Source: Alkalicaulis satelles (GTDB lineage Bacteria > Pseudomonadota > Alphaproteobacteria > Caulobacterales > Maricaulaceae). Taken from it: a DNA stretch of 64,000 nt. Position numbers and translations under genes: made by a program. The stretch spans positions 821,001 through 885,000 of the forward strand of contig NZ_VWOJ01000002.1 in assembly GCF_008630495.1 (NCBI RefSeq), given 5' to 3'. Shown piece after piece: positions 21,679-40,054 of the stretch (within the stretch, counting starts at the first letter, position 1; each line of letters opens with the position of its first letter). The notes under the pieces were generated by a model that was given only the letters and a program-made list of their open reading frames with translations, was not told where the DNA came from and ran no database searches.

Positions 21679-21858
21679 TTACAAGTTGACAGACTCGGTC
21701 GTAATGGCGGCCATGCCGCCACCTGCGGCGCCATCAATCCAGTTGTACCGCTCGCTAGAGAGCAGGATGAAATGGATCAGGATGGCCAGGGTGAAGAGGA
21801 ACACGAACAAGGCGATAACCGCCCGGCGCGGATCGAAAAGAAGCCAGATTTTCCACAT
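21679..21858 (-). CDS. pufA: Light-harvesting 1 alpha polypeptide
   Basis: 59 aa. [18 protein letters not shown] is the classic LH1-alpha N-terminus; His29 in [17 protein letters not shown] is the axial ligand of the B875 bacteriochlorophyll in the single membrane helix. The C-terminal tail is Gly/Ala-rich and ends TESVNL. It follows pufB by 12 nt, with AGGAGG between them. The tail beyond YNW is a little longer than in minimal LH1-alpha proteins and may be trimmed. Confidence 0.95.
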
Positions 21859-21870
21859 GGTTCTTTCCTC

Positions 21871-22011
21871 CTAACCGAGCCACGGACGCCAGAACCACAC
21901 GAGAACGTGGGCGACGACCGCAATTGCCGTGAATCCAAGGAAGCTAGAGACGAAGATCTTGTGAAACTCCTTCGCCTCTCCTTCCGACAGTCCGGACATT
22001 GAGTCACTCAT
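21871..22011 (-). CDS. pufB: Light-harvesting 1 beta polypeptide
   Basis: 46 aa. Begins [20 protein letters not shown] and ends [11 protein letters not shown], the standard LH1-beta pattern. His35 ([10 protein letters not shown]) is the bacteriochlorophyll ligand and His17 the conserved cytoplasmic histidine. GGGAGT lies upstream of the ATG. It is the first puf gene; 127 nt of hairpin-rich sequence separate it from bchZ, and there is no room for a pufQ gene. Confidence 0.96.
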
Positions 22012-27162: not shown

Positions 27163-27180
27163 TGTCAGTTTACATTGACA
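27163..27180. promoter_or_regulatory. PpsR operator upstream of bchC
   Basis: tgtcagtttacattgaca matches TGT-N12-ACA exactly and is a longer dyad (TGTCA ... TGACA). It lies in the short crtF-bchC gap and covers the predicted -10 element of the bchC promoter. bchC is a classic PpsR/CrtJ target in Rhodobacter. Confidence 0.8.
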
Positions 27181-29251: not shown

Positions 29252-29269
29252 TGTCATGAAGACTGGACA
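29252..29269. promoter_or_regulatory. PpsR operator between crtE and crtD
   Basis: tgtcatgaagactggaca is an exact TGT-N12-ACA match in the 102-bp divergent gap, 19 bp before the crtD ATG and 67 bp before the crtE ATG. A further TGTCA at 29240 and TGTCAA at 29283 flank it, so a cluster of half-sites is present. Coordinated oxygen control of both carotenoid units is the likely role. Confidence 0.7.
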
Positions 29270-29287: not shown

Positions 29288-30856
29288 ATGAGCGGCGCGC
29301 GCGGACCGGATCGCGCCGTGATCATCGGAGCGGGGATGGGTGGTCTGGCCGCGGCCATTGATCTGGCCGCGCGCGGCGTACCGGTGACCCTGGTGGAAAG
29401 CGCCCCGGAACCCGGCGGCAAGATGCGCACGCTGGAGGCGGGCGGCGCCGCAATCGACGCCGGACCCACCGTCCTCACCCTGCGCGCCGGGTTTGAGCAA
29501 TTATTCGCCGATGCGGGCGCATCGCTGGCCGATCATGTTTCCCTGACGCGCGCAGAGCGCCTGGCCCGTCATGCCTGGGGCGATGATCAGGGCTTTGATC
29601 TCTATCCTGACCCCGAACGCAGCGTGGATGAAGCCGGGCGCTTCGCCGGCGCAGCCCAGGCGCGCGCCTTCGCGCGCTTCCTGCGCGACGGACAAAAGCT
29701 CTATGAGGCCCTTGAGCCGAGCTTCCTGTTCGCCTCAAGGCCCAGCCCGCCCGGTCTGACCCTTCGCATGCTGGCGCAGAACCCTGCGGGCGTCACGACC
29801 CTGCGGCCCTTCTCCGCGCTGTGGGATGTGCTGGGCGGGTATTTCCCCGATGCGCGCCTGCGCCAGCTGTATGGCCGCTACGCCACCTATTGCGGGTCCT
29901 CGCCTTTCGAGGCGCCGGCCACCTTGATGATGATCGCCGCCCTCGAGCAGCAGGGCGTGTGGTTTGTGGACGGGGGCATGACGCAATTATCGCGCGCCAT
30001 GGCCGGGCTCGCCCGCGCGCTGGGCGCACAGCTGCGCTATGACACGAAAGCCGAGGCGGTGCTGACCGCGCATGGCCGGGTGAGCGGGGTGCGCCTGGCG
30101 GGCGGCGAGATCATTGCGGCGCGCGCCGTGCTGGCCAATGGCGATCCCGACGCCCTGCGGGCCGGGTGTCTGGGGCCGGCGGCGGCGCAGGCCATGGCGC
30201 CCGCCCACGGGCCGCGCTCGCTGTCGGCTGTGGTCTGGACGGGCGTAGGCGAGGCTGAGGGCTTTGCGCTGGAGCGCCATAATGTCTTCTTCTCGGGCGA
30301 TTACCGCGCCGAGTTCGGAGCCCTGTTCGATGAGCAGCGCATGCCCGATGATCCGACCATCTATATCTGCGCCCAGGACCGAGGGGCGGGACCGGCGCCG
30401 CGGGGCGCAGAGCGCTTTCTCATCCTCATCAACGCGCCGCCCGACGGGGAGCGGCGCGCCTATGGGCTTCAGGAGACCGGATCATGGCTGACCCAAGTGA
30501 AGGCGCGCCTCAGGGCCAGCGGGCTGACGCTGGAACTGGATGCGTATCAGACGACGGCGCCGGACGGCTTCGCGGCGCGCTTTCCCGGGACGGGCGGCGC
30601 GCTCTACGGGCGGGCCCTGCACGGATGGCGGGCGGCGTTTGCGCGGCCGGGGGCGAAGACGCGCCTGCCGGGCCTCTATCTGGCGGGGGGCGGGACCCAT
30701 CCTGGGCCGGGGGTTCCGACCTCCATGCTGTCGGGCCGCACGGCGGCGCGCGCGATTCTGGCCGATTTCGCTTCGACGCCCCGCTGGCGCCCGGCGGGTA
30801 TCGCTGGCTCTACGCCGACGCCATCAGCGCGGACGGACGCTTCAGCCTCGTCCTGA
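29288..30856 (+). CDS. crtD: Hydroxyneurosporene/methoxyneurosporene desaturase CrtD
   Basis: 522 aa. FAD-dependent C3,4-desaturase of acyclic carotenoids. The dinucleotide-binding N-terminus is AVIIGAGMGGLAAAIDLAAR, followed by GGKMRTLEAGGAAIDAGPTV, and the C-terminal FAD motif is GLYLAGGGTHPGPGVPTSML. The family normally ends soon after the RAILADF-type segment; here the frame runs about 25 further residues into crtC. The ATG at 29288 has no clear Shine-Dalgarno and follows the PpsR site by 18 nt, so a leaderless or short-leader transcript is possible. CrtI at 33539-35044 is its paralogue. Confidence 0.92.
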   Translation: MSGARGPDRAVIIGAGMGGLAAAIDLAARGVPVTLVESAPEPGGKMRTLEAGGAAIDAGPTVLTLRAGFEQLFADAGASLADHVSLTRAERLARHAWGDDQGFDLYPDPERSVDEAGRFAGAAQARAFARFLRDGQKLYEALEPSFLFASRPSPPGLTLRMLAQNPAGVTTLRPFSALWDVLGGYFPDARLRQLYGRYATYCGSSPFEAPATLMMIAALEQQGVWFVDGGMTQLSRAMAGLARALGAQLRYDTKAEAVLTAHGRVSGVRLAGGEIIAARAVLANGDPDALRAGCLGPAAAQAMAPAHGPRSLSAVVWTGVGEAEGFALERHNVFFSGDYRAEFGALFDEQRMPDDPTIYICAQDRGAGPAPRGAERFLILINAPPDGERRAYGLQETGSWLTQVKARLRASGLTLELDAYQTTAPDGFAARFPGTGGALYGRALHGWRAAFARPGAKTRLPGLYLAGGGTHPGPGVPTSMLSGRTAARAILADFASTPRWRPAGIAGSTPTPSARTDASASS

Positions 30857-31680
30857 TCACCCTGTTGGGCAGCGTATTCTCGCCCTATTACGCCTGGGCG
30901 GGCCGGCGCGCGCCCCTGGATCATTGCGCGCTCAATGTCTGCCTCTATGGCCCCGGGGTGCGCCGCTGGGCCATGACCGAGCGCCGCGCAGGCGAGGTGG
31001 AGGCGGGTGAAGATCATGTGCGGCTCGGCCCCAGCGCGGTGCGGTTTGAGGACGGGGCGCTGATCTATGACATCGCCGAGTATGGCGCGCCCGTCCCCTT
31101 GCGCGTGCGCGGCCAGGTGGTGATCCGCCCCGAGGCCGAGCAGAGCGAGACCTTCACGCTGGATGCGGCAGGCCGCCATGTCTGGCGTCCGATCTGGCCG
31201 CGCGCGCGGGTGGAGGCGCGCTTCACCGCGCCGGACTTGCGCTTTTCCGGCGAGGCCTATGTGGACATGAATGCGGGCGAGGAGCCTTTGGAAGCGGGGT
31301 TTCGCTCCTGGAACTGGGCGCGCACGGCGCTGCCGGACGGCGCGGCGATTCTTTATGATTCGGTCTGGAAAGACGGCGGCGGCCAGGGCCTCGCCCTGCG
31401 CATCGGGCCGGACGGCAAGGCGGCCGCCTTCGATCCCCCGCCGCTCAAGGACCTGCCCCTGACCGGGTGGCGGGTGGCGCGCGCGGCGCGTTCGGAAGGG
31501 TCAGCGCAGGTGCAACAGACGCTGGAAGACACGCCCTTCTATGCGCGCTCGCTGATCAGCACGGAGCTCCTGGGCGCGCCGCGCAAGTCCATGCATGAGA
31601 GCCTGGACCTGACGCGGTTTTCGTCACCCGTGGTCAAGATGATGCTGCCCTTCCGCATGCCGCGCGCGTTCTGGCGCTAG
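30625..31680 (+). CDS. crtC: Hydroxyneurosporene synthase (carotenoid 1,2-hydratase) CrtC
   Basis: 351 aa as drawn. Adds water across the end double bond of neurosporene or lycopene. The conserved core begins at FDAPLAPGGYRWLYADAISA (about nt 30769) and contains LGSVFSPYYAWAGRRAP, WNWARTALPDGAAILYDSVW and the terminal PRAFWR; the core of about 302 aa equals complete CrtC in Rhodobacter. The start is uncertain: no ATG, GTG or TTG exists in frame between 30625 and the core. ATG 30625 has no good Shine-Dalgarno, whereas ATG 30484 has AGGAG nine bases upstream and would overlap crtD by 373 nt. Confidence 0.88.
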   Translation: MAGGVCAAGGEDAPAGPLSGGGRDPSWAGGSDLHAVGPHGGARDSGRFRFDAPLAPGGYRWLYADAISADGRFSLVLITLLGSVFSPYYAWAGRRAPLDHCALNVCLYGPGVRRWAMTERRAGEVEAGEDHVRLGPSAVRFEDGALIYDIAEYGAPVPLRVRGQVVIRPEAEQSETFTLDAAGRHVWRPIWPRARVEARFTAPDLRFSGEAYVDMNAGEEPLEAGFRSWNWARTALPDGAAILYDSVWKDGGGQGLALRIGPDGKAAAFDPPPLKDLPLTGWRVARAARSEGSAQVQQTLEDTPFYARSLISTELLGAPRKSMHESLDLTRFSSPVVKMMLPFRMPRAFWR

Positions 31681-31802
31681 CTTGGGTTCTGGTCGTCCTT
31701 TTTTTCCTCGCGGTGGAGCTTGATCAGCTCCCAGACCCCGAACGCCATGATGGCGCCGAAGATCAGGATCAGCTCCACCAGGAAGATCATGTCATTGCTC
31801 AT
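31677..31802 (-). CDS. 41-aa single-helix membrane protein downstream of tspO
   Basis: 41 aa: a hydrophobic helix (about 5-26, starting MIFLVELILIFGAIMAFG) ending WELIKLHR, then a charged tail EEKKDDQNPS. Its ATG overlaps the tspO stop (ATGA), so translation should be coupled, and its stop shares the CTAG palindrome with the convergent crtC stop. It resembles the 44-aa protein at 32351-32485: both show E-L, G-A, E-L, a basic patch and an acidic/lysine tail at the same spacing. I do not recognise the family; an assembly or carotenoid/porphyrin-handling partner of TspO is a guess from context. Confidence 0.7.
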   Translation of the reverse strand: MSNDMIFLVELILIFGAIMAFGVWELIKLHREEKKDDQNPS

Positions 31803-32266
31803 GCTGCGGCCTTTCGCAGGCGCACGATCTCCAGGTTGAGAAAGGCGGCCAGGCTCACCCAGGCCAGATACGGCGCCAGCAGCCAGGCGGCGAGGGCGTC
31901 CACCTGGGTGAAGGCGTAGATATTCGCCGCTACCGCCAGCCAGAGCAGCGCCACCTCCGCCAGCGCCCAGCCGGGGCGTCTGAGGCCGAAGAACACTGCC
32001 GACCACAGCGCATTGAGCGCCAGCTGCACGCCCCACACCGCCAGCGCGGGATGCAGTTCGGCGGTGGCCCACACCCGCCATGCGGCATAGGCCATGGCCG
32101 CATAGAGAAGGCCCCAGACCAACGGGAACACGAAATCGGGCGGCGTCCAGGACGGTTTCCGGAGCGATTTGTACCAGGCGCCCGGACGGAAGACCGCGCC
32201 GGTGAGCGAGGCGAGAAAGACCAGGCCCAGAAAAGGCGCGAGGGTCCAGAGCGGCGCTTCGGTCAT
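31799..32266 (-). CDS. tspO: TspO/MBR family tryptophan-rich sensory protein
   Basis: 155 aa, five membrane helices. Outer-membrane TspO (CrtK) of Rhodobacter binds porphyrins and damps photosynthesis gene expression under oxygen. Family motifs: FRPGAWYKSLRKPSWTPPDF, FPLVWGLLYAAMAYAAWRVW, LALNALWSAVFFGLRRPGWA and PYLAWVSLAAFLNLEIVRL. It lies in the usual crtIB-tspO order, but here flanked on each side by a tiny membrane-protein gene. An 84-nt gap separates it from the upstream small ORF. Confidence 0.95.
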   Translation of the reverse strand: MTEAPLWTLAPFLGLVFLASLTGAVFRPGAWYKSLRKPSWTPPDFVFPLVWGLLYAAMAYAAWRVWATAELHPALAVWGVQLALNALWSAVFFGLRRPGWALAEVALLWLAVAANIYAFTQVDALAAWLLAPYLAWVSLAAFLNLEIVRLRKAAA

Positions 32267-32350
32267 GGCGTGTCCTTGATGCAGGAAGGGCCCCCAGAGA
32301 CTAGAGCCGGGCGCGGGGGCGGCAATGGGGCGGATCCAGAACGGTGCGGC

Positions 32351-32485
32351 TCAGGACGGCCCGTCTTCGCTATCGCTCTTGTCCTTGGCGTCGTCGCGCC
32401 GCAGAAGGATCAGCTCGCGCACGCACCAGCCGATCACGGCGCCGGCGATCAGAAGCTCAAACACCAGCGGCAGATAGGCCTGCAT
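32351..32485 (-). CDS. 44-aa single-helix membrane protein between crtB and tspO
   Basis: 44 aa: MQAYLPLVFELLIAGAVIGW forms a membrane helix, followed by CVRELILLRRDDAKDKSD and an acidic end. The ATG overlaps the crtB stop (TGATG), so it is very likely translated. It aligns with the 41-aa protein at 31677-31802 over VELILIFGAIMAFGVWEL versus FELLIAGAVIGWCVREL with one gap, plus a similar charged tail; the two look like ancient paralogues. Function unknown. The predicted topology is a helix with a positively charged, then acidic, cytoplasmic tail. Confidence 0.7.
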   Translation of the reverse strand: MQAYLPLVFELLIAGAVIGWCVRELILLRRDDAKDKSDSEDGPS

Positions 32486-33546
32486 CACCCTCTCCGCTGG
32501 CGGCTCGCCATGGACTGGCGCAAGGCGGCCTGTTCGCGCTGCTCCAGGGCGTGGAGAATCTCAAACATCCGCCCCCAGTGTTCGCCCAGCCGCCACCAGG
32601 CCAGGTCCGGCGCCCGGGGCGGGGCGGGCGGCACGGCCTGCACCAGAAACCGGGTTTCGGCCAGCGGGCCTCCAGCGTCCTGCCGCCCGGCGCCGGCGGC
32701 GTCCAGAAGCCCGGCGGCGGCCAGCGCCAGCTTGCGCCGTTTCGAGGTCGCCGCGCGCCGGGTGACGCTGTCAAACCCTGCGCGGCGGATCTGCCCGCCG
32801 ATATCGCGATAGATGCGCGAGGCGGCATGGATGGCGGCCCGGCACCCTGAAGGCAGCAGGGCCACGCCCGGCCGGGCGCGCTCATACAGCCGGTCGGCCT
32901 CGTCCAGCACGCGCGCGATGACCTGGGCCAATTGCGGGCTGAAGCAGGGCGCGGCCAGGAAGGCGTCCGGGTCGAGCCCCGCCTCCTCCATCCATTGACG
33001 CGGCAGGTAGAGCCGGCCCGCGCGCGCATCTTCGCCCACATCGCGCGCGATATTGGTCAATTGCATGGCCACGCCCAGATCGCTGGCGCGGGCCAGCGCG
33101 TGCGGATCGCGCACGCCCATGACCAGCGTCATCATCACGCCCACCGTGCCCGCCACCCGCGCGCCATAGGCGCGCACATCGCCAATAGTGTCAAAGCGCC
33201 GGCCTTGCGCGTCCCAGACAAACCCCTCGATCAGGGCGCCGGGCAGGGCGCGGGGTATGGCGCGCGCCTCGACCAGATCGGCGAAGGCCCGATCCACCGG
33301 GTCCGGTCCGGGGCGCCCGGCATAGATGGCGTCCAGACGCCGGCTCAGATCAATGCAGGCCGCGCCCGGATTGCGCCCGTCATCCACCGCGTCATCGGCG
33401 CGCCGGCAGAAGCCGTAGAGCGCATAGGCGTCCGCGCGCACGCCGGACGGCAGCAGGAGCGAGGCGGCGTAGAAGCTCTTCGACCCGCCCCGGATGGCGC
33501 GGCGGCAGGCCTCGAGATCGGCGGGGCTGGCGAAGCGCTCAGACAT
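32485..33546 (-). CDS. crtB: 15-cis-phytoene synthase CrtB
   Basis: 353 aa. Condenses two geranylgeranyl diphosphates to phytoene, the first committed carotenoid step. Mg-binding aspartate motifs DDAVDDG and NIARDVGEDARAGRLYLPRQ are present, with GSKSFYAASLLLP near the N-terminus. ATG 33546 has GAGGG just upstream and overlaps crtI by 8 nt; an ATG four codons earlier lacks one. The last 60 residues vary in the family. Confidence 0.95.
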   Translation of the reverse strand: MSERFASPADLEACRRAIRGGSKSFYAASLLLPSGVRADAYALYGFCRRADDAVDDGRNPGAACIDLSRRLDAIYAGRPGPDPVDRAFADLVEARAIPRALPGALIEGFVWDAQGRRFDTIGDVRAYGARVAGTVGVMMTLVMGVRDPHALARASDLGVAMQLTNIARDVGEDARAGRLYLPRQWMEEAGLDPDAFLAAPCFSPQLAQVIARVLDEADRLYERARPGVALLPSGCRAAIHAASRIYRDIGGQIRRAGFDSVTRRAATSKRRKLALAAAGLLDAAGAGRQDAGGPLAETRFLVQAVPPAPPRAPDLAWWRLGEHWGRMFEILHALEQREQAALRQSMASRQRRG

Positions 33547-35044
33547 GGGCCCTCGCATCCGGCACGACGCTGTCGAGCACCCGGGCCGAGGACAACACCC
33601 CCGGCACGCCTGCGCCGGGATGGGTGCCTGCGCCCACCAGATAGAGCCCCATGATGTCCTCGCTGCGGTTATGGGGCCTGAACCAGGCGCTCTGGGTCAG
33701 TACCGGCTCCAGCCCGAAGGCCGCGCCGCGCAGCGAATTGAGCCGGTCGCGGAAATCCAGCGGCGTCAGGGTCAGCGACACCTCCACCGCCTCCTTCAGC
33801 CCCGGCAGGAGCGTCTCCTCCAGACGCTTTTCGATGGCCTGGCGGTAGGGCTCGGCGATTTCAGTCCAGTCCGCATCGCCCTCCAGATTGGGTACGGGCG
33901 AGAGCACATAAAACGCCTCGCATCCCGGCGGCGCCAGGCTGGGGTCGGTGGCGGTGGGCCGGTGCAGATAGAGGCTGAAATCGTCCGCCAGATGCTTGCG
34001 GCGGAAAATGTCGTCCAGAAGGCCCTTGTAACGCGGGCCCAGAACGATGGTGTGGTGATCCACGTCCCGATAGGTGCGGCGCACGCCGAAATACCACACG
34101 AACAGACTCATGGAGTAGCGCGCCTTGTCCACCTTGGCGTCGGTCCAGCGCTTGCGCGGGGCGTCAGACAGAAGGTGTTTGTAGGTGTGGCCGGTTTCGG
34201 CATTGGACACCACGATGTCCGCCCTGATCTCCTGCCCATCGCTCAGGCGCACGCCCGTGGCGCGGCCGGCGTCCACGGTGATCTGGCTGACTTCGGTATT
34301 GCAGCGCACCACGCCGCCCTGGCCCTCGATGAGGCTGACCAGTCCGTCGACCAGCTGGCCGGTGCCGCCCATGGCGAAATGCACGCCCCATTTGCGTTCG
34401 AGATAGGAGATCAGGCAGTAGACCGCGCTCGCCTCGAACGGATTGCCGCCGATCAGAAGCGGGTGAAAGCTCAGCGCCGTGCGCACTTTCGGGTCGCGCA
34501 CATAGCGCGAGACCAGATCATGCACCGAGCGGTGCCCGGACAGGCGGATCAGGTCCGGCGCGATGCGCGCCATGTCGGCGATGGTGTCAAACGCCACATG
34601 GCCGAGCTGTTCGAAGCCGACGCGGAAAATCTCCTCGCTCTTCTTCAAAAAGCGTTCATAGCCGGCCACGTCTGCGGGATTGAATTTGGCCACTTCGGCG
34701 CGCATGGCCCCGGCGTCGCGCGAGCACTGGAACACCGAGCCGTCATCAAAGCGAATGCCGTAGAAAGGCGAGATCTCGCGCAGCTCCACATCGTCTTCCA
34801 GCTTGCGACCGGCCAGCGCCCACAATTCCTCGAACAGGAAGGGCGCGGTGATGATGGTGGGGCCGGCGTCGAACACATAGCCGCCTTCGCGGTAGACATA
34901 AGCTCGCCCGCCCGGCGCATCGAGTTTATCCAGGACGGTGACCCGGTAGCCGCGCGCGCCCAGGCGCACCGCCGCAGCGAGCCCGCCAAACCCGGCGCCG
35001 ATGACCACCGCATGGGGCCGTGTGTCGGCTGTGTCTCTGGGCAT
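33539..35044 (-). CDS. crtI: Phytoene desaturase CrtI
   Basis: 501 aa. FAD-dependent desaturase converting phytoene to neurosporene or lycopene. N-terminal HAVVIGAGFGGLAAAVRLGA and GGRAYVYREGGYVFDAGPTI; C-terminal GLYLVGAGTHPGAGVPGVLS. The number of desaturation steps (three or four) cannot be read from the sequence by eye. The ATG is 3 nt after the stop of the DUF3422 gene, so crtI has no promoter gap of its own and must be co-transcribed or use a promoter inside DUF3422. Confidence 0.95.
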   Translation of the reverse strand: MPRDTADTRPHAVVIGAGFGGLAAAVRLGARGYRVTVLDKLDAPGGRAYVYREGGYVFDAGPTIITAPFLFEELWALAGRKLEDDVELREISPFYGIRFDDGSVFQCSRDAGAMRAEVAKFNPADVAGYERFLKKSEEIFRVGFEQLGHVAFDTIADMARIAPDLIRLSGHRSVHDLVSRYVRDPKVRTALSFHPLLIGGNPFEASAVYCLISYLERKWGVHFAMGGTGQLVDGLVSLIEGQGGVVRCNTEVSQITVDAGRATGVRLSDGQEIRADIVVSNAETGHTYKHLLSDAPRKRWTDAKVDKARYSMSLFVWYFGVRRTYRDVDHHTIVLGPRYKGLLDDIFRRKHLADDFSLYLHRPTATDPSLAPPGCEAFYVLSPVPNLEGDADWTEIAEPYRQAIEKRLEETLLPGLKEAVEVSLTLTPLDFRDRLNSLRGAAFGLEPVLTQSAWFRPHNRSEDIMGLYLVGAGTHPGAGVPGVLSSARVLDSVVPDARAHV

Positions 35045-35047
35045 GGA

Positions 35048-36346
35048 TCAGTCTCCCGTCCGGTTGAGGCCGGCGCGCACCCGGCGCAGGCCATAGGCCA
35101 GCATGAACACCACGATGGGAATGGCGGCAGCGGTGACCAGGGTGGCGTTGTAGGGCAGGCCCAGATCCTCCCCGCCCTTGGCCAGATAGGCGAACAGGCC
35201 GACCACGTAATAGCTGATGGCTGCGATGGAGAGCCCCTCCACCGTGCGCTGCAGGCGCAGCTGCAGCTTGGCGCGCCGGGCCATGGCGGCCAGCAGCTTG
35301 CGGCTCTGCTGTTCCTGGGTCAGCGCCACGCGCGTGGACAAGAGCTGGGTCACCCGTGAAAGGCGTTCCGACATGGAGCCCAGCCGCTCGGACACGGCCT
35401 TGACCGTGTTCATGGCGGGCGCCAGACGGCGTTCGACAAATTCGGCGAAGGTCTGCAGGCGCTCAAGGCGCTGCTCGCGCAACTCGTCAATGCGCGCCTG
35501 AACTATGCCGTAATAGGCTTCCGAGGCGGTGAAGCGGAAGCGGTGCTGGGAATGGCGCCGTTCGATATCGGCCTGCAGCCGCGTGATCCGGTCCAGCAGC
35601 CCGCTCTCGTCGCTATGCACCCCGTCCGCCATTTCATGGGTGATTTCGGCCAGCTCGCGCTCGCGCTCGGTCAGGGTGCGGCCCATCTGGCGCGCCGGCG
35701 GCAGGCCCAGAAGGGCCATCATGCGATACGTGTCCATCTCCAGAAGATTGCGCATCAGGCGCCCGGCCTGGATCGGATTCAGGGACGCATTGCGGATCAG
35801 GAAGCGGTTGAAGCCGTCGCCATGGCTGCGGAAGCTGGTCAGCACCACGCTGTGACCGGCCCCGATGCGCGCCCCCACCAGCTCGGCGTCTCCGAACAGG
35901 GCGCGCGCGGTCTCGTCAATCGCCGGACCGTCTCCAGCCGCATTCACCATCAGCACATGAGCGGCGTAAATGATCTCGCCGGGCAGGCTCTCCAGCCAGT
36001 CCGACGGCGCCTCGGCGATGGGCGGATTGTCGAACGGGGCGCGCTCGTCTCCATTCTGGCGGATGAATGTGTAACGGGTGAACTCGGTATGGCGCTCCCA
36101 GATCACCCGCACCGGGCCCAGATGAGCGCTGTAATGGGTCGCGTCCGGTGAGGGCGCCGCGGCGCTGAAGCGCTTGGCCAGATCGGCGATGGCGGCCCGG
36201 TCCGCATCCCGGTCCTCCGGTCCGGTATAGAGCACCAGATAGGACGCGCTCAAAGGCCCGGTCAGCGGCTGGGGCGGGCGCGCATGCACCTCCTCGCTGA
36301 GCGCGGTGCGGTGGGGATGGCTGGCCGGCAGGGTCAGGCTGGGCAT
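35048..36346 (-). CDS. DUF3422 membrane-anchored protein in the bchO-crtI operon
   Basis: 432 aa. Matches my memory of the DUF3422 family: N-terminal HPHRTALSEEVHARPPQPLT, a soluble domain to about residue 250, a predicted coiled-coil stretch (about 255-345, rich in R, E, L and Q), and two C-terminal membrane helices (about 375-425). It overlaps bchO by 13 nt and is 3 nt from crtI, so it is an integral part of the operon. No biochemical role is known to me. Elsewhere the family is found in non-phototrophs too, so its presence inside the cluster is notable. Confidence 0.85.
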   Translation of the reverse strand: MPSLTLPASHPHRTALSEEVHARPPQPLTGPLSASYLVLYTGPEDRDADRAAIADLAKRFSAAAPSPDATHYSAHLGPVRVIWERHTEFTRYTFIRQNGDERAPFDNPPIAEAPSDWLESLPGEIIYAAHVLMVNAAGDGPAIDETARALFGDAELVGARIGAGHSVVLTSFRSHGDGFNRFLIRNASLNPIQAGRLMRNLLEMDTYRMMALLGLPPARQMGRTLTERERELAEITHEMADGVHSDESGLLDRITRLQADIERRHSQHRFRFTASEAYYGIVQARIDELREQRLERLQTFAEFVERRLAPAMNTVKAVSERLGSMSERLSRVTQLLSTRVALTQEQQSRKLLAAMARRAKLQLRLQRTVEGLSIAAISYYVVGLFAYLAKGGEDLGLPYNATLVTAAAIPIVVFMLAYGLRRVRAGLNRTGD

Positions 36347-37260
36347 GATGCGCCTCCTGCGAGCCGCAACCCGGGATGAGTGTCGGTTTGCGTGTCCTGG
36401 ACGGTGACGCCCGCCGCCCGCGCCGCCTCAAGGATGATGTCCGCGGCGCGCGCCGGATCTTCCTCGTGCGCCAGATGGCCAAGGCCCGGCAGGCTGATCA
36501 GGCGGCAGTCCGGGATCAGCCGCGCGGTCGCTTCAATGGCGCGGGCGGGGGTGGCGCTGTCGGCCTCTCCGGCTGCGAAGGTGACAGGCAGGGCGATGTT
36601 ATGCAGCTCGGCCTGCAGCGGGCGCAGCTTCCAGTGCGCCATCAGGCGCAGCGTGCCCGCGATATGGCCGGGCTGGCGCAAGAGCTGCTGATAGAGCGCC
36701 AGACCCTCGGGCGAGAGGCGCGAGCCGGTGCGCTCGATCAGGCGCGCCACACGGGTCTGGCTCGCCTGGGCCGACAGGAGGCGCGCGGCCAGCGGATTGA
36801 GCAGGGCCAGGCGCGCGGTTTTCGAGGCGATGCCGTCCGCGCGCCCGCCATAGGGTTTGAGCGCCGGGGCGAAGCCCACAATGGCGCGCGGGGCTGCATG
36901 ACCGTCCAGCACCAGGCGCAGGGCCACCGCCACGCCCGCCGAATGGCCTGCGATCACAGCCGGGGCCGCTCCGATCTCGCGCAGCAAAGCGCCCAGCGCG
37001 CGCGCCACCGCCGCCACGTCCGGCGCGCGCAGGCTGCTGGAAAAGCCAAGCCCGGGCAGGTCGATCATGACGATCTCGAACTTGTCTTTGAGCCGGGCCG
37101 CCAGCTCGCGGAAGGAGTGGGTCGAGGCGCCTGCGCCATGAATGAGCAGCAGGGCCGGGCCGGCGCCGAAGCGCTGCACATGCCAGTTCACCCCGCCTGC
37201 AGGCACGATCTGGCTGGCCTCCGCGAAGGGCCAGCCGGCGGGGATGCGCGCGCGCCTCAT
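36334..37260 (-). CDS. bchO: Mg-chelatase-associated alpha/beta hydrolase BchO
   Basis: 308 aa from ATG 37260, which overlaps the bchD stop (ATGA). Alpha/beta-hydrolase fold: oxyanion region LLLIHGAGASTHSF, nucleophile elbow IAGHSAGVAVAL (GHSAG), and GLGHLAHEEDP with the catalytic histidine. bchO regularly follows bchID; its exact function in bacteriochlorophyll synthesis is unsettled. A more upstream in-frame ATG (37299) would read inside bchD. Confidence 0.9.
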   Translation of the reverse strand: MRRARIPAGWPFAEASQIVPAGGVNWHVQRFGAGPALLLIHGAGASTHSFRELAARLKDKFEIVMIDLPGLGFSSSLRAPDVAAVARALGALLREIGAAPAVIAGHSAGVAVALRLVLDGHAAPRAIVGFAPALKPYGGRADGIASKTARLALLNPLAARLLSAQASQTRVARLIERTGSRLSPEGLALYQQLLRQPGHIAGTLRLMAHWKLRPLQAELHNIALPVTFAAGEADSATPARAIEATARLIPDCRLISLPGLGHLAHEEDPARAADIILEAARAAGVTVQDTQTDTHPGLRLAGGASCPA

Positions 37261-39002
37261 GCCGCCGCCTTGCGGGCCAGCTGGGCCAACGCGCCGCAAT
37301 CGCCGGCGGGCAGGCGCACATAGCGCGCGGCCATGTCCTGGGCGATGACGCGCGCGGTCTCCGCCCCGCGCTTGGAGACATCCACGATGATCGCGCCATG
37401 ACCCGCCGCGCGCAGGCGCCGGGCGGCCTCGCTGGCTTCGGCCATGGCCGCTTCGCGCCCTCCATGGCCGTCGCGGGTGACGTTCGCGGCCCCGTCGGTG
37501 AGAAAGACCAGCGTCACCGTGCGCCCCTGACGCGCTGCGCCATGGGCCAGGGCCTCAGCCGCCTCGATGGCGGCGGCCAACGGCGTGCCGCCCCCGCCCG
37601 GCAAGGCGGCGAGACACCGCTTGGCGCGGGTCAGCGAGCGGGTGGGCGGCAGCAGCGTCTCCGCCCCGCGCCCGCGAAACGCGATCAGCGCCACCTGGTC
37701 GCGGCGCACATAGGACTGGGCCAGCATCATCTCCACTGCGCCCTTGGCGTCGGCGAGGCGGTTGAGCGCCAGCGAGCCCGACGCATCCACCACGAACAGG
37801 GTCAGGGTCTCGGCCTTCTCCTTGAAATGCTTGATGCGGAAATCCTCGCGGCGCACCTCCACCGCCGGGCCGGGCGCCAGGCGCTTCCAGCCCTTGCGGC
37901 GCATGCGGCCCCAGGGCGCCGCCGCGCGCAACGTCGCCAGCACGTCCAGCCGGCGCCCCTCGCCCGGATCGCCCCGGCGCGAGCCGGCCGGACGCCCGCG
38001 CAGGCCGCCCCGTTTGGCCGCCCCGGCCTTGCCGGCAGCGCGGCTGCGCGCGTTCGGCACGCCCGCCTCCAGCCGCGCCAGCAGATCAGCCGGAATGGCG
38101 GCGCGCGCCGCCTCCAGGGTAATCTCGGTCAGGGCGTCCGGGCTCGGCGTCTCGTCATCGCTGGCGGGCGGGTCTTCATTGCGGGTCTCGCGATCATTGG
38201 CCGGATCGTCCGGCGGCGCGTCATTCTCATCGCCCTCGGCCCGGGGCAGCTGCGTGGCGCGCGGCGCCAGCACCAGCCGGGCGGCCAGCACGGTCTGCGC
38301 GTCGGTCACCTCGTCCAGCCCCTCCAGCGCGGCGGCCGCCCGCGCCGCGCGCAGCGCCATCAGCGGCGGGCGCAAGGAATCTATGCCCAGCGCGGCGGCC
38401 GTTTCGGTGAGCGCCCGCGCCGCCTCGCCACTGAGCACATGAGGCAGATGCATGCGCGCCATGGCCGCCGTCTCGCGGTCCACACCCTCGCCTGCGGCAT
38501 CCAGATCGCCCAGCGCCACCTGGCTGAGGTTGATATGCAGGGCCAGGCGCTCGGCCAGCGCGCGCGGCGCGCCTTCATCCGGGTCCGCGCTTTCATCCAG
38601 CGCCAGGATCACCGGCGCGTCCGGCCCGTCCAGCGCCATCGCAAGCCGGGCGGCCAGGCCTGGCCCGGCGCGCTCGGCCATGGCCAGCACGCCCGCCCCG
38701 CCGCGTATCTCGCCCAGAAGCCCTTCGCGCATCACCGGCCTGCCGGTTTTCAGCGTGGCGGCCAGATCCATCCCGCCCAGCAGCGCCTCGTCGCTGATCC
38801 CTGCCGGGATGCGCCGCCAGGGCGCGTCCTCATTGATCAGCGCGCGCACCGTGTCCAGAAACGCCTCGCGCACCGGCCCGGCGCGCGCGGTCACCAGCGC
38901 CCCGCCCAGACCCGGATCGACGGCGATCAAGGCCGCCGCCAGACGCGCCAGCGCCCAGCCCTCAAGGGGCGGCGCATGGGGAAGGGGAATGTCCGCGCTC
39001 AC
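37257..39002 (-). CDS. bchD: Magnesium chelatase subunit D
   Basis: 581 aa. AAA+ module with degenerate ATPase motifs, an acidic/proline linker (about 245-290, many D, E and P), and a C-terminal integrin-I-like domain with the MIDAS motif FVVDASGSLALNR and later FLTDGAANVTRDG. It bridges the BchI motor to BchH. The start is GTG 39002, overlapping the bchI stop (GTGA). Confidence 0.95.
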   Translation of the reverse strand: MSADIPLPHAPPLEGWALARLAAALIAVDPGLGGALVTARAGPVREAFLDTVRALINEDAPWRRIPAGISDEALLGGMDLAATLKTGRPVMREGLLGEIRGGAGVLAMAERAGPGLAARLAMALDGPDAPVILALDESADPDEGAPRALAERLALHINLSQVALGDLDAAGEGVDRETAAMARMHLPHVLSGEAARALTETAAALGIDSLRPPLMALRAARAAAALEGLDEVTDAQTVLAARLVLAPRATQLPRAEGDENDAPPDDPANDRETRNEDPPASDDETPSPDALTEITLEAARAAIPADLLARLEAGVPNARSRAAGKAGAAKRGGLRGRPAGSRRGDPGEGRRLDVLATLRAAAPWGRMRRKGWKRLAPGPAVEVRREDFRIKHFKEKAETLTLFVVDASGSLALNRLADAKGAVEMMLAQSYVRRDQVALIAFRGRGAETLLPPTRSLTRAKRCLAALPGGGGTPLAAAIEAAEALAHGAARQGRTVTLVFLTDGAANVTRDGHGGREAAMAEASEAARRLRAAGHGAIIVDVSKRGAETARVIAQDMAARYVRLPAGDCGALAQLARKAAA

Positions 39003-40006
39003 GCGGCGAACGCCTCGGCCAGGCCCCGCTCGATGCGCGCCGATGAGCCCGCCTCGTCCAGCGGATCACGGCGCAGGCGGTGGCGTAGGGCGGCGGGCGC
39101 CACGGCGCGCAAATGCTCCAGCGATATCTCGTCGGCTGCGTTCAGCGCCGCCGCTGCGCGCGCCGCGCGGATCAGGGTCAGCTCGCCGCGCAGCCCGTCC
39201 GCGCCCAGCGCCAGACAGATTTCAGACGCGCGCCGCAGAACCGCCTCGGGGGTTTCCAGCGCACCGATGCGTCCCTGCGCCTCGGCGATGCGCGTGCGCA
39301 GCGCATCCACCTCGCTGGCCCACTGAGCACAGAAGCCATGGGGATCGCGTTCAAACGCATCGCGCCGGCGCACCACCTCGATGCGCATCTCGATATCGCG
39401 CGGCGTTTCAACCTCCACCGACAGGCCGAACCGGTCGAGCAATTGCGGACGCAGCTCGCCCTCTTCCGGATTGCCGCTGCCCACCAGCACGAATTTCGCC
39501 GGATGGCGCACGCTCAGCCCGTCGCGTTCCACCACATTCTCGCCGGTGGCCGCCACGTCGAGCAAGAGATCGACGATGTGATCCTCGAGAAGATTGACCT
39601 CGTCGATATAGAGAAAGCCCCGGTTGGCGCGCGCCAGCAGACCCGGCTCGAACGCCTTCTCGCCCTTGCGCAGCGCCTTTTCGATATCCAGCGCGCCCAC
39701 CACCCGGTCCTCGGTGACGCCCAGCGGCAAATCCACCACCGGGGCGGGCTTGCTCACCACATTGCCGCGCGAGCGCCCGTCGCCATTGACCGGCGCCGAG
39801 CCGGGCGCGGAGTTGTAGGGGCAGTGCTCATAGGTCTCGATGGGGGGCAGAAGCCCGGCCAGCGCGCGTACTGCAGTGGACTTGGCCGTGCCCCTGTCGC
39901 CGAACACCAGCACCCCGCCCACACGCGGCTCCACGCACGCGATGAGCAGGGCCTGCTTCATCTCCTCCTGCCCGACAATGGCGGGGAAGGGAAAAACTGG
40001 GGTCAT
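38999..40006 (-). CDS. bchI: Magnesium chelatase ATPase subunit I
   Basis: 335 aa. AAA+ ATPase that forms rings with BchD and drives Mg insertion. Walker A is VFGDRGTAKSTAVRALAG, Walker B FLYIDEVNLLEDHIVDLLLD, and the sensor region VLVGSGNPEEGELRPQLLDR. It heads the long bchI-to-tspO unit; GAGG precedes its ATG and a PpsR dyad lies 31 bp upstream. Confidence 0.96.
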   Translation of the reverse strand: MTPVFPFPAIVGQEEMKQALLIACVEPRVGGVLVFGDRGTAKSTAVRALAGLLPPIETYEHCPYNSAPGSAPVNGDGRSRGNVVSKPAPVVDLPLGVTEDRVVGALDIEKALRKGEKAFEPGLLARANRGFLYIDEVNLLEDHIVDLLLDVAATGENVVERDGLSVRHPAKFVLVGSGNPEEGELRPQLLDRFGLSVEVETPRDIEMRIEVVRRRDAFERDPHGFCAQWASEVDALRTRIAEAQGRIGALETPEAVLRRASEICLALGADGLRGELTLIRAARAAAALNAADEISLEHLRAVAPAALRHRLRRDPLDEAGSSARIERGLAEAFAA

Positions 40007-40036: not shown

Positions 40037-40054
40037 TGTCTAGCAAATTGGACA
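40037..40054. promoter_or_regulatory. PpsR operator upstream of bchI
   Basis: tgtctagcaaattggaca is an exact TGT-N12-ACA, extended to a 6-bp dyad AGTGTC ... GACACT (the flanking bases agt/act also pair). It lies in the 125-bp gap between bchI and the acetyl-CoA hydrolase gene, with an AT-rich stretch just upstream on the minus strand that would hold the -35 region. Likely governs the whole bchIDO-DUF3422-crtIB-tspO unit. Confidence 0.75.

Follow-up and report, generated by a model that had tools for sequence, protein, structure and literature searches.

Duplicate single-helix membrane peptides around tspO in the photosynthesis gene cluster of Alkalicaulis satelles and their family in alphaproteobacterial phototrophs

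What do the two short open reading frames (ORFs) flanking tspO in the photosynthesis gene cluster (PGC) of Alkalicaulis satelles (Caulobacterales, Maricaulaceae) encode? They lie in a stretch of 64,000 nucleotides (contig NZ_VWOJ01000002.1, positions 821,001 to 885,000), here called the window. A preliminary description had proposed two paralogous single-helix peptides, an undescribed small-protein component of the cluster and perhaps a partner of TspO or of a pigment enzyme. The products, pep41 and pep44 (Table 1), are duplicate members of a conserved single-pass membrane peptide family. The family is a real constituent of photosynthesis clusters and, as far as searches of families and literature show, undescribed. 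Genomes and loci are referred to by G and L numbers where they need to be told apart.

Two paralogous ORFs and their family

Both ORFs lie on the minus strand and are coupled to the stops of the preceding genes, as the preliminary description held: pep44 starts at 32485 within the stop of crtB (GTGATG, with TGATG as overlap) and pep41 at 31802 within that of tspO (ATGA). The stop of pep41 shares 4 nt with the stop of the convergent crtC. Pep44 lies ahead of tspO and does not adjoin crtC; it has helix and basic tail, and the layout claimed for both peptides (E-L, G-A, E-L, L-x-R and a Lys/Asp tail) is found in each. Their likeness exceeds chance, in agreement with the proposed paralogy. In a single BLASTP comparison, identity is 43% over 28 residues (E 5e-7). 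None of 20000 global shuffles reaches the same alignment score, and a fraction of 0.0002 attains it if helix and tail are shuffled apart. Each is the reciprocal best other match of the second in the 2.9-Mb genome (E 0.046 and 0.069). A profile built without the genus, from 27 relatives, was searched against 4083 six-frame fragments taken from the window and nine genus loci; it recovers pep41 with E 8.7e-12 and pep44 with E 5.6e-5, and nothing else in the window falls below E 3.8. Copies of the pep44 type in other members of the genus range from E 7e-6 to 3.6 against this profile. Because of these scores pep41, adjoining crtC, is on sequence grounds the canonical copy and pep44 the divergent one.

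The family profile was begun from small ORFs after crtB in the window and in 51 loci of the order, most of which hold the same kind of peptide; the best match among 33311 reversed fragments has E 0.54. Members are mostly about 36-70 aa long, and pep41 is predicted by AlphaFold2 as one helix (residues 2-38, mean pLDDT 84). The set used for anatomy comprises 100 genes, left from 105 matches in 100 loci after five matches without recognised PGC neighbours (in L190, L191, L206 and L207) had been dropped. L190 and L191 are thus absent from the counts, though they come from pufM genomes, and the weak peptides of L279 and L280 fall below the cut. Lys/Arg residues are commoner C-terminal than N-terminal to the helix in 99 of the 100 genes, with a mean of 0.14 before and 4.43 behind it. 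In pep41 numbering the most frequent residues are Glu 10 (77/100) and Gly 16 (74/100); Phe/Trp occupies position 21 in 92, Trp/Tyr position 24 in 81 and Glu/Gln position 25 in 96 genes. A conserved His was not found in the helix of these genes. The C-terminal GHPEG was rejected as an independent protein motif: in all four GHPEG loci checked (L078, L086, L102, L121) its codons are antisense to those for MLPFRMPR, the conserved C-terminal end of CrtC.

Among 45 members, Pfam and NCBIfam give scattered weak matches only; any one family matches at most two of them, and the matches (best E 0.0037 in Pfam, 0.0092 in NCBIfam) were not accepted. No chain of the PDB convincingly matches the 45-sequence profile, the best being a G-protein-coupled receptor (0.0065). 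No paper on the family was found by title or abstract start in a search that lay outside subscription papers and preprints, so that an earlier description is possible.

Both ORFs show coding periodicity (GC by codon position 0.52/0.21/0.90 in pep41, 0.69/0.40/0.84 in pep44). Within the genus (three sequences each), the true-frame pN/pS is 0.46 for pep41 and 0.49 for pep44, and the Jukes-Cantor (JC) dN/dS is 0.36 for either. The two other sense frames yield pN/pS of 1.3-2.3, with stops, and the antisense frames 0.61-3.2; one antisense frame lies clearly below 1 (0.66, 0.61), since third codon positions are common to both frames. Purifying selection is found in seven sequence groups (JC dN/dS 0.07-0.36; synonymous sites are saturated for 16 of the 28 pairs of group g22), computed on codons 2-35 only, because the C-terminal GHPEG is antisense to crtC. 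That the ORFs are untranslated, and alike merely by convergence of hydrophobic sequence in the gap between crtB/tspO and crtC, is hardly credible. Short hydrophobic ORFs do arise easily and the GHPEG part of the C-terminal likeness does mirror the crtC end, but dN/dS is well below 1 in the core outside the crtC overlap, the leave-genus-out profile recovers the peptides, and the reversed control yields nothing comparable. This explanation is largely refuted already, dN/dS and leave-genus-out recovery ruling out a chance or non-coding ORF. The preliminary description had set a dN/dS near 1 and a lack of conservation in related photosynthesis clusters as grounds against itself; neither is the case. 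Its undescribed component is real coding sequence with no convincing match to a curated family.

Distribution, gene neighbourhood and copy number

Sampled alphaproteobacterial PGCs outside the Rhodobacterales-type lineage hardly ever lack the peptide. Among 398 genomes of the order, it occurs in 48 of the 51 with PGC-type crtB (E below 1e-100, cut at a visible gap), always at E 1.2e-8 or better; these are counts of related genomes, not independent trials, and partly circular, as the profile includes rows from that order. The three PGC-type crtB loci without it are L090 (G167), L091 (G140) and L095 (G433). A larger hydrophobic ORF follows crtB in its stead in G167. The other 347 genomes include 26 with a match at E 0.01. 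Eight of these reach 1.7e-5 or better, and each of the eight neighbours bch genes where the stretch has no crtB match (L209-L216); the remaining 18 are weak (5.7e-5 to 0.0094). In the genus of the window all 10 PGC genomes carry the peptide, and the five genomes without crtB match give none.

The class sample (337 genomes) contains pufM in 22. At the preset E of 0.01 the peptide is found in 19 of these 22 vs 7 of 315 pufM-less genomes, and at E 1.5e-5, a cut chosen after seeing the data, in 19/22 vs 2/315 (Fisher 6e-26). The two pufM-less genomes are G569 (74% complete, PGC genes present, L199) and G573, where no PGC genes were found around the match (L206). The misses among pufM genomes are G479 and G693, both with the order bchI-crtI-crtB-tspO as in Roseobacter records, and the unplaced G774. 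Family f56 is not knowingly part of the profile, the family of whose sole Hyphomicrobiales row (L014) is not known. There, 16 of 16 pufM genomes (besides G712 and G617) have a match at E 0.01 (5.6e-5 or better in 14), and the peptide adjoins crtB or crtB-tspO in 15 of the 16; the pufM-less members show 7/16 weak matches (0.0067-0.0080), all inside ORFs of 323-515 aa, and none better. None of eight named Rhodobacterales plasmid clusters has a match at E 0.01 within 6.8-8.8 kb around crtB (best 0.33 and 0.94), and L128 (Rhodobacterales) has a 135-bp crtB-tspO gap without peptide.

A 56-aa ORF after crtB in the gammaproteobacterium Thiodictyon (E 7.3) was not accepted, and matches in L206, in L207 and inside long ORFs (G202, for example) are treated as chance. 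At L206:6500-7018, in the pufM-less G573, two adjoining peptide-like ORFs follow glycolate-oxidase-like genes (named by eye), either by chance or as distant kin. In two pufM genomes of one family (G767, L190:6416-6538; G688, L191:6200-6316), the peptide gene is isolated: the 9-13 kb retrieved around it contain no match to crt, bch or tspO.

Typically the peptide is encoded by the last gene of a bchI-bchD-bchO-(crtI-crtB)-(tspO) unit, convergent with crtC. Within 600 nt upstream, the first recognised gene is crtB for 68 of the 100 genes, tspO for 16 and bchO for 11, and 5 have none. Of the other 95, 79 start no more than 30 nt from the upstream stop, and 39 overlap it. The end of crtC is found within 700 nt in 84/100, 45 of which overlap tail to tail (by up to 78 nt, one over-long reading aside). 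The peptide is kept even if neither crtB nor crtI was found (L194, L208-L217), and likewise if crtC was not (L215, L203, L197), and four phototroph loci (L190, L191, L193, L273) have it away from recognised crt and bch genes.

Most genomes carry one copy. Within the 10 PGC genomes of the genus, two copies occur in G000, G086, G090, G092 and G097, three in G091 and G095, and one in G088, G093 and G094. Outside the genus, L265 has two peptide-like ORFs in the crtB-crtC interval (E 5e-6, 2e-4), and L273 has tspO followed, from 495 nt on, by three in tandem (E 5e-10, 8e-5, 0.1). In view of these cases duplication seems recurrent, the pair of the window being one instance. The tandem of L273 (4997-5418; phototroph G831) has a weak third ORF and no crt genes found in 12 kb. 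At L265:6466-6957 a 153-aa ORF between crtB and crtC begins with the peptide and continues with an Ala/Pro-rich stretch.

Gene names in the window follow synteny with annotated relatives, family scans where cited and general knowledge of PGCs (Table 1).

Table 1. Features of the window; positions are counted from its first nucleotide
Feature	Position	Strand	Basis and remarks
pep41	31677..31802	-	41-aa single-helix peptide, canonical family copy; MSNDMIFLVELILIFGAIMAFGVWELIKLHREEKKDDQNPS
pep44	32351..32485	-	44-aa divergent paralogue; MQAYLPLVFELLIAGAVIGWCVRELILLRRDDAKDKSDSEDGPS
tspO, TspO/MBR family	31799..32266	-	PF03073, E 3.5e-44
crtB, phytoene synthase	32485..33558	-	PF00494, E 6.2e-74; NF045921, 397.5 bits, below cut-off 500; extent is the longest ORF, true start maybe slightly further in
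crtC region (convergent)	30484..31680	+	synteny with annotated relatives and family knowledge; listed ORF start inside crtD
crtI, phytoene desaturase	33539..35044	-	annotated relatives next to crtB
ORF between bchO and crtI	35048..36346	-	presumably duf3422
bchO, bchD, bchI	36334..40006	-	start of the presumed transcription unit ending with pep41; order conserved in relatives; bchI and bchD named by annotated relatives, bchO presumed from such clusters
TGT-N12-ACA palindrome	40037..40054	+	upstream of bchI
LH1 alpha and beta chains	21679-21858, 21871-22011		named by synteny

The motif TGT-N12-ACA, which we take to be the PpsR/CrtJ-type consensus, has 11 sites in the window vs 3.24 expected. 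The sole site before the unit is the one upstream of bchI, and none occurs between it and pep41. Palindromes of the form TGTC-N10-GACA lie at 27163-27180 (just upstream of bchC), 29252-29269 (at the start of crtE, before crtD) and at the site upstream of bchI. A sigma-70 and terminator scan of 31600-32600 detected no promoter and one weak terminator-like site inside tspO. Relatives of the presumed duf3422 ORF occur in or beside several other photosynthesis clusters.

Candidate roles

The placement at the end of a pigment unit, the independence of any one neighbour and the apparent exclusion of PufQ together speak for the peptide as an accessory of pigment supply or of photosystem biogenesis. 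We tentatively read the peptide as a non-catalytic membrane anchor or regulator of one of these, perhaps filling the niche of PufQ. Presence in almost every sampled alphaproteobacterial phototroph outside the Rhodobacter-type lineage likewise suggests that it probably helps to make or assemble pigments or machinery. The helix would insert with a very short N-terminus outside and the Lys/Arg-rich tail in the cytoplasm. The transmembrane Glu in the outer third, the central Gly, the inner Phe/Trp and the W/Y-E/Q pair at the inner border may pack against a partner helix. Synthesised in step with Mg-chelatase, CrtI/B and TspO through translational coupling, the peptide would act on the delivery of tetrapyrrole and/or carotenoid to photosystem assembly. 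In these bacteria it would thereby take the place that the unrelated single-transmembrane PufQ has in Rhodobacterales, and the second copy in the window would be a lineage-specific duplicate, diverged probably toward a variant partner surface.

PufQ, as described in the consulted part of PMC5725709, is a small single-transmembrane protein that reportedly acts on the ferrochelatase of Rhodobacter sphaeroides, steering porphyrin to bacteriochlorophyll; the same part of that source states that not every purple bacterium has it and asks how those without it regulate the branch point of haem and bacteriochlorophyll. Of 98 chosen genomes with pufM or PGC genes, 80 were searched for PufQ. It occurs in two (G479, G693), both without the peptide; 74 of the 80 have the peptide without PufQ, and none has both. 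In G479, the ORF between bchZ and pufB is PufQ (PF05398, 1.5e-19). The corresponding interval of the window is a gap of 127 bp with no ORF listed, and PF05398 has no match among 45 family members or in G000. Of the eight named Rhodobacterales plasmids without peptide in the region examined, seven carry PufQ and Roseinatronobacter sp. S2 does not. The apparent exclusion is a lead, as the PufQ side may be one lineage.

Several points weigh against the accessory reading. The anticorrelation comprises few PufQ cases (2 of 80 genomes and seven plasmids of one order) and may therefore be a single lineage split. Four phototrophs have neither PufQ nor peptide (G774, G167, G140, G433). Peptide and PufQ show no similarity (hhalign probability 1.7%), PufQ being the longer. 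Genomes in the counts are related and hence not independent, and the order itself supplied part of the profile. Against the profile built outside the genus, seven pep44-type copies of other genus members score weakly (E 0.02-3.6); these were assigned to the family by position and within-genus similarity. The partner and the biochemical step, finally, are ones that we infer.

Other roles are each less probable. A small structural or assembly subunit of the reaction centre-light-harvesting 1 complex (RC-LH1), at or near the LH1 ring and with a role like that of PufX, protein-W or protein-O, is rather unlikely. The predicted single transmembrane helix, the close tie to pufM genomes, the absence from the examined Rhodobacterales plasmid clusters, G479 and G693, and duplications by lineage, as in structural chains, would fit such a subunit, and an accessory RC-LH1 subunit may be encoded away from the PGC, as the part of PMC12079452 consulted describes for protein-O. 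Where PGC genes are seen, however, the gene ends a pigment unit and is not in a puf or puh operon, and no PDB chain matches convincingly, although RC-LH1 is well represented there (at E 1e-100, 82 distinct M-chain sequences, counting variants). The latter argument is weak, because chains of unknown residues are absent from the library and no carrier genome was matched to a solved species: the best PufM matches of carriers to solved RC-LH1 species are not near-identical, and in 82 genomes of f56 no PufM is more than 77% identical to that of 6z5r, presumably the R. palustris entry. Also unlikely is a role as a dedicated TspO partner, in which the single helix would serve as a subunit or modulate porphyrin binding or signalling and the two copies here would clamp or tune TspO. 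It would account for the 16 genes with tspO nearest upstream, nine through a 4-nt ATGA overlap, and for L193 and L273, where tspO lies 11 and 495 nt upstream and no crt gene was found in 12-13 kb. TspO is moreover encoded in 51 of 51 peptide-bearing genomes tested vs 21 of 60 pufM-less genomes of the class (controls picked by hand among the first entries listed, skipping some small genomes). But adjacency to tspO is not constant, as 74 of the 100 genes have it on neither side; 16 have it upstream, and 10 crtB-neighboured pep44-type copies of the genus have it downstream. Three of three peptide-less phototrophs tested have tspO as well (54/54 in all), as do the eight peptide-less Rhodobacterales plasmids, and therefore TspO needs no peptide there: in the genomes tested, tspO accompanies phototrophy whether or not the peptide is present. 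As a general partner of TspO the peptide was rejected, since at E 1 the profile found nothing in the tspO loci that lack crt neighbours (L011-L013, L015-L043). An exclusive TspO partner is thus not favoured. That the pair is special to tspO finds no support as stated, though a role with TspO is possible.

That the family is the counterpart of PufQ proper, an unrelated one-helix peptide steering porphyrin between haem and bacteriochlorophyll via TspO and/or ferrochelatase in PufQ-less alphaproteobacterial phototrophs and duplicated more than once to tune different partners, is a bolder proposal and quite unlikely. Very unlikely is a partner of CrtB or CrtC that tethers these carotenoid enzymes to the membrane: the frequent neighbourhood of crtB (68/100) and crtC (84/100) would agree with it, but the peptide persists without crtB/crtI (L208-L213, L217) and without crtC (L215, L203, L197), and Rhodobacterales clusters with crtB, tspO and crtC lack it. 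The family is a piece that reconstructions of bacteriochlorophyll photosynthesis outside Rhodobacter have been missing. The apparent PufQ exclusion makes it testable how PufQ-less phototrophs control the haem/bacteriochlorophyll branch point, the question raised in the cited part of PMC5725709.

Comparison with known small membrane proteins

The LH1 alpha and beta chains are likewise short single-helix products of PGCs. Unlike them (the two chains of the window only were compared), the peptide family has no similarity to such chains and no conserved His in the helix, a residue that has its role in LH1. The accessory RC-LH1 polypeptides PufX, protein-W and protein-O are small membrane proteins tied to phototrophy too, but they differ from the peptide, which has no convincing PDB match and whose gene was not seen in puf or puh; protein-W has three helices, according to the part of PMC7806223 consulted, the peptide one. 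In Roseobacter clusters, a gene marked 'hyp' is placed between crtK(tspO) and crtC in the portion of PMC3176799 consulted. This is the same position, between tspO and crtC, but the R. litoralis gene found there is annotated as an outer-membrane beta-barrel protein, lies on the crtC strand and measures 723 nt. Among the closest known proteins is PufQ (PF05398), also a small hydrophobic single-transmembrane protein encoded in the photosynthesis cluster, with a cytoplasmic C-terminus predicted in the consulted part of PMC5725709 and a complementary distribution within our sample. The PufQ profile has 74 positions, whereas the peptides are mostly shorter, and pufQ in G479 lies between bchZ and pufB, whereas the peptide gene ends the bchIDO-crtIB-tspO unit.

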